The notes under the pieces are model-generated. The model was not told where the DNA came from. It ran no database searches and saw nothing but the letters and a program-made list of their open reading frames with translations. This document shows, piece after piece, positions 11,932-25,792 of a stretch of DNA of 64,000 nucleotides. This DNA is from Magnetococcales bacterium DCbin4. Lineage in GTDB: Bacteria; Pseudomonadota; Magnetococcia; Magnetococcales; UBA8363. The stretch covers positions 1-64,000 of the forward strand of contig PEAN01000003.1 in the NCBI GenBank assembly GCA_002753735.1, given 5' to 3'. The translations under genes were made by a program, and so were the position numbers. The first letter of the stretch is position 1. Each line of letters starts with the position of its first letter.

Positions 11932-13248
11932 TTGAACACCAAAATCAAACCCAGGGCATTTGACCGGCGCAAACCAGGTTTCGACCGTAGAAACCCGCTG
12001 GAAAATGACCCTTATCTACTCGATGACCGACGCAAGGCAGGCAGTGATCGACGCCAGATGGTTCTGGAACGACGGCAACAGTTGCTGGGTGATGGTTTGG
12101 GGTCCGACTCCAAGGCCGCTGTCGAGGCTCGGTGTTTTGGTTCCTATCAAAAACATCTCCTGACCACCGGAATCGCCGATCCCGAAGCGTCGTTGAAGGT
12201 CATCCAAAGCTTTTCCGTCTATCTGCATAATATTTCGAAGTATCTTCTGGATGTCACCGAAAAGGATCTGGAAAATTTTCTGCGTCTGATCAATAACCGC
12301 AACCCTTCGGAACAGATCACCCGAAAACATGCGGTTGTGTTGATCGATTTCTATCTGTTGTTGATCCAGGAAGGGGTATTGGTCAACAATCCGCTGATTT
12401 ATCTGTATAAACTATTGGCGGACAATCATTTCGTTGATGAATCCACCGGTTTGGAACTGGATCGTTTCGCCTCCGCCCTGTCGGACAAAAACAAAACCGA
12501 AGAACCCGAAGGGCCAAAGGGGGAACCGCCGCCTCGGCTCAAACCACCCCCTCAAAATACCGATTTCACCTCCCCTCCCACATGGAACCGGTATCCTGAA
12601 GAACGTTCCCATCATCGGAGGCGACCTCGTATTTTCAAGCGATGGTTGGTCATTTCACTGCTCATTCTGCTGGTCATGGGGGGGGTATTTGCCGGCGCGC
12701 CGATCATTGTCAATCAATTTGTCATCTGGTCTTCAACCCTTGCGCAGCCCAAACCACCGGTCACCTCAGCCAGGGTTGAACCTCAGGAGGAAGCAACGGA
12801 CACGGGGGGGACGCGCGAAATCAAGACCAGGGTCCATTCGGTGCAACGCGGTGCCAAGATTGATCGCATCGCCTATTTTTATCAGCATGGATTGGAGAAT
12901 TATTATTGCAAGGTGTTTCTCAATTCATTGTGCAACCAGCAATCCTTGAACCTTAATCCGTTGAAGTCCGACTTCAAAGCCATGGAAGATGGCACCTTTC
13001 TCTATTCCAAACATTGCGCCCGATGTCATGGCGCCAAAGGGAGGGGGGGTGGCGTTGATGCGGGACAGTTGGAAATTCCACCGACCCGCCTTGATTTCAT
13101 TGCGGATCGGGTCTTGGAGCGGGATGCCTATCTGTTCTGGTCGATTGCGGAAGGAGGAACGCCGTTCAAATCGGGCATGCCCGCCTACAAGGAAATTTTG
13201 TCGGCAAAGGAAATATGGTCGATCATCGTCTATCTGGGAATGTTGTAG
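11932..13248 (+). CDS. Membrane-anchored cytochrome c with integrase-like N-terminal domain
   Basis: About 438 residues in an unusual order. Residues 5-50 hold repeated D/E-R-R motifs (FDRRKPGFDRRNP, LDDRRKAGSDRRQ). Residues about 75-170 resemble the SAM-like core-binding domain of tyrosine integrases, without any catalytic domain. A Pro-rich linker leads to one transmembrane segment (about 236-262). A periplasmic class I cytochrome c follows, with CARCH at 362-366 and a distal-Met candidate in SGMPAYKE. TTG 11932 has AAGGA five bases upstream; a TTG at 11887 is the alternative. A decayed copy of the C-terminal part occurs at 23160-23560. The integrase likeness is judged by eye; the haem motif is certain. 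Confidence 0.75.
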   Translation: MNTKIKPRAFDRRKPGFDRRNPLENDPYLLDDRRKAGSDRRQMVLERRQQLLGDGLGSDSKAAVEARCFGSYQKHLLTTGIADPEASLKVIQSFSVYLHNISKYLLDVTEKDLENFLRLINNRNPSEQITRKHAVVLIDFYLLLIQEGVLVNNPLIYLYKLLADNHFVDESTGLELDRFASALSDKNKTEEPEGPKGEPPPRLKPPPQNTDFTSPPTWNRYPEERSHHRRRPRIFKRWLVISLLILLVMGGVFAGAPIIVNQFVIWSSTLAQPKPPVTSARVEPQEEATDTGGTREIKTRVHSVQRGAKIDRIAYFYQHGLENYYCKVFLNSLCNQQSLNLNPLKSDFKAMEDGTFLYSKHCARCHGAKGRGGGVDAGQLEIPPTRLDFIADRVLERDAYLFWSIAEGGTPFKSGMPAYKEILSAKEIWSIIVYLGML

Positions 13249-13394
13249 GGTCACCGGTTTGAACTCCGGAATACCCCATGCCTGAATTGACTCAAGCGCC
13301 ACAAGTTGTATTTTCTTGTACATTTTCATGATATAAATTATTTATTGTACCGTTACCACACTTCCCTTCATCAGGATATGATGGGCATCCAATA

Positions 13395-14930
13395 ATGTGG
13401 ATATGGATTTCTACAATACGCCAGAAGGAATTATTTGGCATCCGTTTTGGCTCTACTCAGGAATCGGTGGAAAAGATTGAGCCGACATGGCTGGCCATGG
13501 TCGAATCGTTGTTGGCGGTGGCGTGTTATGGGTGGTTTGCCTGGTATTTCCAGACGCATGTCCATCTCCTGGTCAGCGTATGTGTTGCACCGCTGCTGTT
13601 GCTCCGTTCCAAGGAATCCACCGCAAAAGGAGTGGAATGGTTTGACCGTTTCTGGAAAAATGAACAACCATTTGGCGCATTCAACAATCCGTTTTTCTTT
13701 TGGGTAATCTTCTCTTTGGTCGTGGCAATTACCGCTGTCTGTATTTATCTCTTGGCGCAATCTTTAACACTGGAATTTTTGACATTATTTATTCGCATCA
13801 TTATTATTATATTCATTTCATCTTTATTTGGATTTTTAGTCACCTTTGCGATTGTAGGAGCAGTCGCGGAATTGGAAAGAGTAGCGATCGCAATCACAGT
13901 AGCGGGAGCAGTCGCGGGCGCGGTCGCAGGGGTGAGCGTGGAAGGGGGCGTGGGCGTTGCAGCGGTTGCGGGAGCAGTGGCAGGAGGAGTAGCGTTGGCA
14001 GTAGCGGGAATGAATGCGATGGTGTTAACGGTCATGTTAACAGTCGTTGGAGCGGGAGTTGCAGTCGTAAAAGGAGCGCGAGTAACAGCAGTAGTAACGG
14101 GAGCATTCGCGGGAGCAGGAGCGGCAGCGACAGCCGTCATGGGATCGGCAGCGTTGGGCGTTTGGCTGCGTTCCATTGGGATCCGATTCATTGCCACCCT
14201 GCGTCACCCGTGGTTCGGAATCCAATCCCTGCCGGACAACTGGCACCGTACCCTTCTGGCCATTGACCTGTACCATGCTCCGGAATTGGTTCCTGGCCTG
14301 GAAGAACGAAATCACGAATCAAGTACCCTGTCATTGATAAAAAAATTAAAGAATACTTTCTTCTTTATTGCATTTTTTTATATTCTATTTTCCATGATCT
14401 TCATTGTGCCTGCCATCCTGTACCGATGGAGCCTGAAATCTACTTGCTGGCTGTACCTGCCCATCATCAATTTCACCCAACGACCGGAGTGGGTTGATGG
14501 AAGCCAACGAGAAGGGCCGGGGACATTGCTCTGTCTTCTGCATCATGGCGCTGTAGAAAAACTTCGCCGATTCATCGCCGTGCTTGTGCTGCTGTCAACT
14601 GCATTTTTCACTTTGGACCTCTCCCAATATTTCGCGCTCAAGGATCATTTTCCAGCTTCGCCGATTCTGGTCCAGATGTGGGGCTTCAATCTTACCCAAC
14701 TCCACCCATGGCAATGGTTGGGCCTCGTCGCCGCCCTGGCAACCCTTTTCATCTTTATCCAGAGTGACAAGGCCATGCTCCGATGGAAACGGATCAAGAA
14801 ACTCAATGGCGAAAAGGCCGATCCATCGCCAACCGATCTGAAATGGCTTTGGCGACTTACGCAACTACGAAATATCAGCTCATTTTTTTGGATTCTACTC
14901 AGCGTCGGATATGTTTTGTTTCATGCATAA
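13395..14930 (+). CDS. Polytopic membrane protein with Ala/Val/Gly-rich core, function unknown
   Basis: A 511-residue protein with several hydrophobic segments (about 35-75, 100-165, 320-345, 395-415, 435-460, 490-505). Residues about 155-255 are an almost pure Ala/Val/Gly tract coded by GCG/GTA/GGA-type codons, and other frames are also open there, which indicates codon-level repeat expansion. I do not recognise a family. A rearranged remnant of the same gene exists at 24283-24411 (start) and 25660-25792 (end). There the C-terminus reads on for about 28 more residues (ending HLPPMP), so this copy may itself have lost its tail. Confidence 0.65.
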   Translation: MWIWISTIRQKELFGIRFGSTQESVEKIEPTWLAMVESLLAVACYGWFAWYFQTHVHLLVSVCVAPLLLLRSKESTAKGVEWFDRFWKNEQPFGAFNNPFFFWVIFSLVVAITAVCIYLLAQSLTLEFLTLFIRIIIIIFISSLFGFLVTFAIVGAVAELERVAIAITVAGAVAGAVAGVSVEGGVGVAAVAGAVAGGVALAVAGMNAMVLTVMLTVVGAGVAVVKGARVTAVVTGAFAGAGAAATAVMGSAALGVWLRSIGIRFIATLRHPWFGIQSLPDNWHRTLLAIDLYHAPELVPGLEERNHESSTLSLIKKLKNTFFFIAFFYILFSMIFIVPAILYRWSLKSTCWLYLPIINFTQRPEWVDGSQREGPGTLLCLLHHGAVEKLRRFIAVLVLLSTAFFTLDLSQYFALKDHFPASPILVQMWGFNLTQLHPWQWLGLVAALATLFIFIQSDKAMLRWKRIKKLNGEKADPSPTDLKWLWRLTQLRNISSFFWILLSVGYVLFHA

Positions 14931-23159: not shown

Positions 23160-23560
23160 GGTAATTCGGTGCAACGTGGCGGGATTGATCGCATCGCCTA
23201 TATTTATTGGCATGAATTGGAGCATTATTTTTGCAGGGTGTTTTTCAATTCATTGTGCAACCAGCAATCCTTGAATCATAATCCGTTGAAGGCCGACTTC
23301 AAAGCCATGGAGGATGGAACGTTTTTCTATTCCAAACATTGCGCCCGATGTCATGGTGCCAAAGAAGGGGGGGTGGCGTTGATGCGGGACAATTGGAAAT
23401 TCCATCGACCCGCGCCTTGATGATATCGCGGATCGGGTCTTGGAGCGGGATGTCTGTCTGTTCTGGTCGATTGCGAAAGGAGGGACGCCGTTCAAACATG
23501 GTCGATCATCGTCTGTCTGGGAATGTTGTAGGGTTACCGGTGTGTACGCCGGGATGTTCC
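23160..23560 (+). pseudogene. Decayed copy of the cytochrome c domain of the 11.9-kb gene
   Basis: Near-identical to 12835-13280: the protein text DRIAYIYWHELEHYFCRVF, FNSLCNQQSLNHNPLKADFK and HCARCHGAK is recognisable in frame, including the CxxCH haem motif. A frameshift follows in the G-run near 23370, and about 45 bases are deleted around 23497 relative to the first copy. The part encoding the N-terminal domain and membrane anchor is missing. Similarity continues a few tens of bases past the old stop codon. Confidence 0.85.
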
Positions 23561-23603
23561 ATACCTGAAACACCGTCATTGGCACCATCAAGAGGAAAAA
23601 TCC

Positions 23604-24282: not shown

Positions 24283-24411
24283 CTGCACCGCTGCCGCACT
24301 TCCCCTACAACCTGTCATTACGGACACCCTCAGGATGTGGACGTGGATTTCTACAATACGCCAGAAAGAATTATTGGGCATACGTTTTGGTTCCACTCGG
24401 GAATCGGGGGA
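24283..24411 (+). pseudogene. Remnant of the start of the 13.4-kb membrane protein gene
   Basis: Closely matches 13350-13475: GTGGATTTCTACAATACGCC, then AGAATTATTGGGCATACG and TTCCACTCGGGAATCGG correspond to the first ~25 codons of the intact gene and its leader. The match ends exactly where the palindromic repeat array begins. No usable reading frame remains. Confidence 0.8.
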
Positions 24412-24546
24412 CATCAACTCGGAAATCGGGGGACATCAACTCGGAAATCGGGGGACATCATACCTATTTCCCTTATAAATCGGGGGACATCATACCTATT
24501 TCCCTTATGGCTATAAATTAAATCGGTATGGTGTCCCCAGATTTCC
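24409..24546. repeat. Palindromic (REPIN-like) repeat array, left copy
   Basis: Several tandem units of AAATCGGGGGACATCA lead into a 70-bp sequence (24477-24546). Its arms AAATCGGGGGACATCATACC and GGTATGGTGTCCCCAGATTT are inverted repeats with three mismatches around a 28-base loop. The same 70 bp recurs exactly at 25590-25659 in direct orientation. Repeats with GGGGACA/TGTCCCC arms are often tied to REP-associated (IS200-like) transposases; none is present here. Confidence 0.82.
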
Positions 24547-25498
24547 GCGTATTTCGGATTTCCCTTATTGAGGAGTTACCATCCTCAACACTAATTTCAA
24601 TCCAATAGTCGAGGTCCACTGGCAATATTCCTCGATTAATCGGTGAAAGAGCATTTGGATTCATTACGTAAATGTACTCTCCAACTATCGGGCCGCTACC
24701 ACAGGTATTGCTGAAAAATGGGTGTGAATGACACGCCAGTATTCCACTGATTCCTTTATATTCCTTGTCAAGAAAACTATCTGTAGGAACACATGCATTG
24801 TTCGCATTGGGGATATTTGGCAGATAATCAACACTCCGGTGAACAATATCGCCCGTTTCACGTGATATTGTGAATTGCTGACATCCAAGAGCGAATACCA
24901 CCTCCAAAGCTCGTGGATATTGAGAAATACCATAAAATCCATCAGTCAAATTTCCTAAATTTCCTGAATTCACAGCGATAACATAACGATCATTTTCATC
25001 GATTTTTTTGTTATCGATATATTTTTTCCTTTTATCAATCTTCTCTTTAATTGCCGCAGTCCATCGTAAATTTATTTGCTCATTAGGCACTTGCCTGACA
25101 ACCGGCCTTCCATGTTTATCCTTGCTCCAGTTGTCATCGCCATATCCTGGGATACGATTTTTCCCATCACCTGCTGTCGGGCATACTGCCTCAATCCAGA
25201 TCGGCCCTCTATCATCAGTTCTCAACATGAAATCTGGTCCTTCATTTTTAGACTCTGGTTTTAGACCAGCCTCCAATAGGCGTACTCCCAGAAGCATTTC
25301 CCAATAACGCTCGACCAACTTTTGCTTGTTTCCGCTTGTGAACTCGGCAATGAAATGAGAGTCCGCAAGTTTCGCAGCGGAAAACTTCCCCCACAGCTGG
25401 GTAATAAAAGAGATTAACTTATTACGGGCTTCTTCCTTCCATTCCCGACCATATCGATGGAGAAAATCTGAAATTAATTTCATCTGATCTTCTGACAT
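24518..25498 (-). CDS. Repeat-flanked protein of unknown function, possibly nuclease-like
   Basis: About 326 residues, AT-rich compared with neighbours. I recognise no named family. The segment EGPDFMLRTDDRGPIWIEAV (residues 86-105) has the PD...(E)x(A) spacing of PD-(D/E)xK nucleases with the lysine replaced, so the nuclease idea is weak. The start MSEDQMKLISDF has AAGGA 13 bases upstream. The C-terminus (TRKSGDTIPI and stop) is encoded inside the left palindromic repeat, so the gene and the repeat moved or evolved together. It lies between 70-bp direct repeats, as a cargo gene would. Confidence 0.6.
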   Translation of the reverse strand: MSEDQMKLISDFLHRYGREWKEEARNKLISFITQLWGKFSAAKLADSHFIAEFTSGNKQKLVERYWEMLLGVRLLEAGLKPESKNEGPDFMLRTDDRGPIWIEAVCPTAGDGKNRIPGYGDDNWSKDKHGRPVVRQVPNEQINLRWTAAIKEKIDKRKKYIDNKKIDENDRYVIAVNSGNLGNLTDGFYGISQYPRALEVVFALGCQQFTISRETGDIVHRSVDYLPNIPNANNACVPTDSFLDKEYKGISGILACHSHPFFSNTCGSGPIVGEYIYVMNPNALSPINRGILPVDLDYWIEISVEDGNSSIREIRNTRKSGDTIPI

Positions 25499-25548
25499 GC
25501 AGATAATTCCTTAGATGAGGGCCGAATTGCCCAGGAAAGCGCGCATGA

Positions 25549-25659
25549 AATCGGGGGACATCACATGAAATCGGGGAACATCATACCTGAAATCGGGGGA
25601 CATCATACCTATTTCCCTTATGGCTATAAATTAAATCGGTATGGTGTCCCCAGATTTCC
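25549..25659. repeat. Palindromic (REPIN-like) repeat array, right copy
   Basis: Units GAAATCGGGGGACATCACAT and GAAATCGGGGAACATCATACC precede the exact 70-bp repeat (25590-25659) shared with 24477-24546. The base after the repeat starts the tail of the interrupted membrane protein gene, marking a clean junction. Confidence 0.82.
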
Positions 25660-25792
25660 ATTTTTTTGGATTCTACTCAGCGTCGGATATGTCTTATTGA
25701 TTTTGGGAACCATCCCACCGGAAACGTTGCACGGGGGATGGATGGGGTTTCTTGGATGGATTTATGACAACCATCTGCCGCCGATGCCGTAG
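25660..25792 (+). pseudogene. Remnant of the end of the membrane protein gene
   Basis: TTTTTTTGGATTCTACTCAG and CGTCGGATATG match 14883-14917 of the intact gene. The reading frame then goes on for about 28 codons (GTIPPETLHGGWMGFLGWIY and further) to a TAG. The intact copy instead ends at once in LFHA. So this fragment may keep the original C-terminus. Confidence 0.75.

Follow-up and report, generated by a model that had tools for sequence, protein, structure and literature searches.

A putative defence gene between two identical RAYT/TIRYT-type hairpins inside a broken membrane-protein gene of a Magnetococcales bacterium

How does a gene of foreign composition come to lie between two identical palindromic repeats inside a host gene, and do repeats and gene travel together? 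The locus that raises this question lies in a stretch of 64,000 nucleotides of the Magnetococcales bacterium DCbin4, the whole of which was analysed and is referred to here as the window. Repeats of the RAYT type are known as miniature elements, and gene carriage is absent from those parts of their published descriptions that were available. We describe the repeat family, the transposase genes that belong with it in relatives, the remnants of the host gene and the anatomy of the arrays that adjoin the repeats. The new observation is that a membrane-protein gene is broken by the hairpin-bordered segment, which fits into it flush, and the locus suggests that such hairpins may help to place accessory genes in this bacterial group.

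The hairpin pair and the broken host gene

Sequence comparison showed that the 70-bp repeats located at 24477-24546 and at 25590-25659 on the plus strand are exactly identical, as originally noted, and that their identity ends exactly at the repeat borders on both sides. Folded as single-stranded DNA, the 70 bp form a hairpin of -17.9 kcal/mol against -6.1 +/- 1.8 kcal/mol for shuffled sequences (z -6.5; 0 of 200 as good). The predicted hairpin thus stands, while its arms, given as 20 bp, proved somewhat larger, with about 27 bp paired (5+14+4+4). Because the two inverted arms fold as one hairpin, the repeat is a REPIN in the inverted-pair sense. A 17-nt core of the repeat occurs nine times in the window, allowing up to 3 mismatches, where 0.52 occurrences are expected. 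The best match of each hairpin at the locus is the other one, the next best match being 92%, and an Rfam search of the hairpin returned no family above threshold.

When the outer flanks of the pair are joined an open frame results, and a protein search identified an intact paralogue of the broken membrane-protein gene in the same window (13395-14930, plus strand, 511 aa). The 5' remnant comprises 21 codons at 24335-24397 on the plus strand, with 89% identity over 63 nt to 13395-13457, and the similarity of this left flank to the paralogue continues into the first unit of the adjoining array. The 3' remnant of the same gene, at 25660-25792 on the plus strand, supplies native C-terminal codons; its first part (25660-25698) has 95% identity over 39 nt to 14882-14920, and it matches homologues in four genomes of other genera (G008, G015, G019 and G025). 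Since both flanks match the paralogue, the segment 24397-25659, of 1.26 kb, replaces about 1.42 kb of the gene. A clean junction with the host gene had been predicted. On the right this was borne out to the base, whereas on the left the border lies where the host gene and the end of the repeat agree at 11/12 nt, GGAATCGGTGGA of the paralogue corresponding to GGAATCGGGGGA of the window's left repeat; the partners at the two junctions are the two remnants of one membrane-protein gene. The paralogue is thus of value as an internal reference, which fixes the right border of the segment to the base and the left border to within about a dozen bases.

An orthologous empty site was not available among relatives, since the gene directly after mshL in G007 is ATPase-like and vapBC is found in a different place there; the proposed comparison with empty sites was therefore made with the paralogue. 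No tRNA gene lies beside the segment in the window. Each copy of the membrane-protein gene has upstream of it a duplicated block of about 0.4 kb (23164-23569 and 12836-13286, 80% identity), and vapBC, with a PIN toxin, is located between the block at 23164-23569 and the gene remnant, where the gap is 765 nt as compared to 108 nt at the paralogue.

The repeat family, its transposases and arrays of truncated arms

The repeat recurs in its own genome, where a search gave 21 matches on five contigs, and in relatives, so that a sequence confined to this one place can be set aside. Matches were present in 22 of the 61 genomes of the group, its own included, and the fetched loci contained 46-47 full hairpins. 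The right arm of the window hairpin carries the motif GGGGWSAS as GGGGACAC, a sequence found in many hairpin copies of relatives, and the left arm, GGGGACAT, is one base off. GGGGWSAS is given as the motif of TIRYT elements in the accessible part of PMC3733652, and according to excerpts of PMC6006769 most TIRYT belong to TnpA-REP subclass 2.1, as do nearly all RAYT group 1 sequences. Neither GTAG nor CTAC occurs in the 70 bp. With a motif of GGGGACA(C), not GTAG, the family is accordingly of the TIRYT/RAYT hairpin type and not a classical GTAG REPIN.

Genes with the PF01797 (Y1_Tnp) domain are present in 33 of 48 genomes of the class. In a subset of these transposases in relatives, roughly 217-255 aa long and most with an HVH motif, a GGGGACA-type arm lies shortly upstream of the start codon, and the leader of the transposase in G023, GAAATCCGGTGACACCATACCTATTTCCCTTATTGCCATAA, is a close match to the left arm of the window hairpin. 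Pfam returned Y1_Tnp as the sole domain in three of these proteins. The predicted REP-associated, IS200-like transposase was hence recovered in relatives, while the window's own genome yielded no intact cognate gene and one degraded relic (C26) with a different arm; this assembly is 95.9% complete and in 148 contigs, so copies may fall in gaps and the absence is uncertain. The 70-bp hairpin is best explained as a RAYT/TIRYT-type mobile element, non-autonomous and built of two inverted arms, for which a Y1/HUH transposase provides the copying activity in trans. Of the REPIN-type unit mobilised in trans that was first proposed, the hairpin family stands, with IS200-like transposase genes in relatives that could act in trans; the repeat is not a GTAG REP. 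G007 contains hairpins of a second subfamily, the arm of which is GGGGACACCCGACTAAATTG (L097 1320-2230 and L096 6685).

As far as the accessible text of PMC3733652 and PMC6006769 describes them, the TIRtron/TIRYT elements and RAYT group 1, corresponding to TnpA-REP subclass 2.1, share with the present family the GGGGWSAS motif, the position of the arm a short distance before a Y1/HUH transposase gene (here in relatives) and the dispersal of copies as single, paired and clustered elements. The present family differs from these descriptions in its long one-sided arrays of truncated arms with common flank sequence and in the pair of hairpins around an unrelated gene; the C-terminal HTH domain of subclass 2.1 was not among the Pfam matches of three transposases of relatives. 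Pseudomonas REPINs, in the portion of PMC3116915 available, are likewise two inverted palindromic units forming one hairpin, with mobilisation in trans by a RAYT presumed, and the same paper describes tandem clusters in which flanking sequence is included. In contrast to these, the present hairpins lack the GTAG tag and the units repeated are truncated arms, not whole REPINs.

Such arrays of truncated arms precede both hairpins at the locus. Three truncated left-arm units of 22, 22 and 32 nt, each preceded by CTCGG, occupy 24397-24476 on the plus strand, and two of 20 and 22 nt, each preceded by CATG, occupy 25544-25589 on the same strand; the partial tandem units that had been noted before each copy were thereby confirmed, at 24401-24476 and 25548-25589, and the start of the array was refined to about 24397. 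Partial units in arrays share a common start point and vary in their end points. Among 78 arrays with 303 units, the 5 nt before the unit start matched at 2.13 of 5 positions within arrays as compared to 1.43 +/- 0.04 after shuffling (p<0.0005), in a shuffle that ignores kinship among genomes, which have some loci in common. Among 92 partial arms, 81 were positioned on the outer side with respect to their own orientation.

This anatomy, with a common start, a short common flank and varied ends, accords with growth in place that starts from a nick next to the hairpin, and such serial growth is the simplest reading of the arrays. An HUH enzyme would nick just outside an arm, synthesis from the 3' end at the nick would run into the hairpin and stall there, after which the strand would be re-joined. 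We infer this course of events in line with a remark on the 3'-OH in PMC8266576, the available part of which proposes both priming of replication by the HUH 3'-OH and strand transfer as routes of REP spread. The common start and flank of the array units render such a model of HUH activity by nicking, extension and re-joining directly testable.

The gene between the hairpins

A single AT-rich gene, as predicted, lies between the repeats and encodes a 326-aa protein on the minus strand (24518-25498). Its TAA stop codon (24518-24520) and about ten preceding codons fall in the left hairpin, and a transposase gene is absent between the repeats, again in agreement with the prediction. The G+C content of the gene is 41.8%, against 52.3% for the window, and 13 of 252 1-kb windows were as low.

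PADLOC matched the protein to PD-T7-5 (3.5e-8, residues 64-254 of 326, 30.9 bits) and to PD-T7-1 (1.1e-7, residues 45-176, 29 bits), both of which are listed as PD-(D/E)xK proteins (PMC10952713). The likeness consists of partial profile matches of about 130-190 residues; set against these families, the scores are low (29-31 bits) and no lysine is apparent at the position expected behind the conserved glutamate (E103-A-V). In an alignment of the protein with five homologues, GPD and W-x-E are invariant. Homologues on plasmids have 22-35% identity, and those examined adjoin toxin-antitoxin, transposase, conjugation or phage-like genes; the core of the repeat was found in none of the seven plasmid stretches that hold them. 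A single-sequence AlphaFold model reached a pLDDT of 34.6, too low for the fold to be read, and a PDB sequence search gave nothing significant. No relative was detected in a scan of genome contigs, two scans of viral contigs gave no match and phage records contained none. On the basis of these comparisons the insert is most likely an acquired AT-rich gene with a predicted PD-(D/E)xK-type phage-defence effector as its product, and the remote homology to PD-T7-5 and PD-T7-1 lends support to the nuclease-like or defence-like function proposed for it. Residence of the gene at a fixed place in relatives that lack the repeats does not apply, as the other 47 genomes of the class contained one weak match of 27%.

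Movement as one unit or by separate events

In a one-step replacement, which in our judgement has an even chance of being correct, a hairpin-ended segment took the place of the inside of the membrane-protein gene. The two hairpin copies would be the ends of a 1.26-kb segment carrying the acquired AT-rich gene, and this segment would have replaced about 1.42 kb inside a redundant gene. On the right, the end of the hairpin would mark its exact junction with the host gene, and the match of 11 out of 12 nt between GGAATCGGTGGA and GGAATCGGGGGA would have yielded the left junction and the deletion. The identical ends support this, as does the fact that both outer edges are flush with parts of one gene, whose paralogue is found 10 kb away. 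Composite transposons similarly hold a gene between two identical element copies, here inside a host gene, but the present arrangement has no transposase inside, and no second copy of hairpin, cargo and hairpin was found among the 48 genomes of the class, apart from the weak 27% match to the cargo. This single instance counts against the replacement, as does the search of the own assembly, which turned up no intact cognate transposase. The three may plausibly have moved as a whole unit.

The defence-like gene may instead have been acquired in some ordinary way, with two mobile hairpins inserting independently beside it at a later time; repeats of this kind are prone to lie at the ends of genes, and their bracketing of this one would then be incidental. 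The identity of the copies, ending exactly at the element, fits two independent insertions as well, the cargo takes its stop codon from the hairpin that overlaps its 3' end, cargo-free single hairpins are common, and AT-rich genes at an accessory-gene hot spot beside rpoD and tRNA-Met in relatives are bracketed in some cases and unbracketed in others. We nevertheless regard this course as somewhat unlikely, since with both outer edges flush against the remnants of one gene the two insertions must each have hit the exact border of the foreign segment. Those flush borders, the lost middle of the gene and the identical copies would all be explained if hairpins had already been present at two places in the membrane-protein gene and a hairpin-cargo-hairpin fragment from another place had replaced the middle by homologous recombination between the repeats, and neighbouring hairpins are indeed often mutual best matches. 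However, 70 bp and short arrays offer little homology, and an intermediate with hairpins but without cargo was not found, which makes such recombination rather improbable. A single gene between imperfect palindromes also recalls an integron-like cassette with attC-type sites. This reading is contradicted by the hairpin, which lacks both GTT and AAC of the attC core (GTTRRRY/RYYYAAC), no Rfam family reaches threshold, and arms of the same kind are carried by Y1 transposases, not by integrases; an integron origin is extremely improbable.

In a more far-reaching reading, RAYT/TIRYT hairpins would form the termini of units that carry genes and are moved in trans, and the HUH transposase would build truncated-arm arrays by repeated nicking, extension and re-joining; taken together, this is a tentative proposal that we consider unlikely. 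AT-richness was rejected as a general signature of bracketed intervals: seven exactly filled AT-rich cases were seen, and overall the intervals were no more AT-rich than the sequence that flanks them (15 of 28 lower, mean -0.018), which counts against the unit. The pattern of AT-rich brackets came to notice after the scan and, compared with all flanks, lacks significance.

The hot spot itself, on the 3' side of rpoD and the tRNA-Met gene, is variable in the class (L101, L098, L115, L185, L187, L188 and L194) and contains AT-rich accessory genes and repeat arrays, with transposase genes in G003, G023 and G027. Its AT-rich genes comprise a kinase gene with PD-T4-6 matches, a gene for a 757-aa protein remotely similar to a SEFIR-domain protein, and others without family. 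At another locus (L109 2573-3781) an AT-rich gene of 402 aa lies between arrays, and its product has 40% identity to a hypothetical protein; the plasmid-collection records that contain the latter are 48.5 kb long and appear to be phage lambda sequence. In the bacterium's own genome, near a contig end, a gene with a HEPN/Toprim N-terminal domain is located between repeat clusters (L025 5084-6382).
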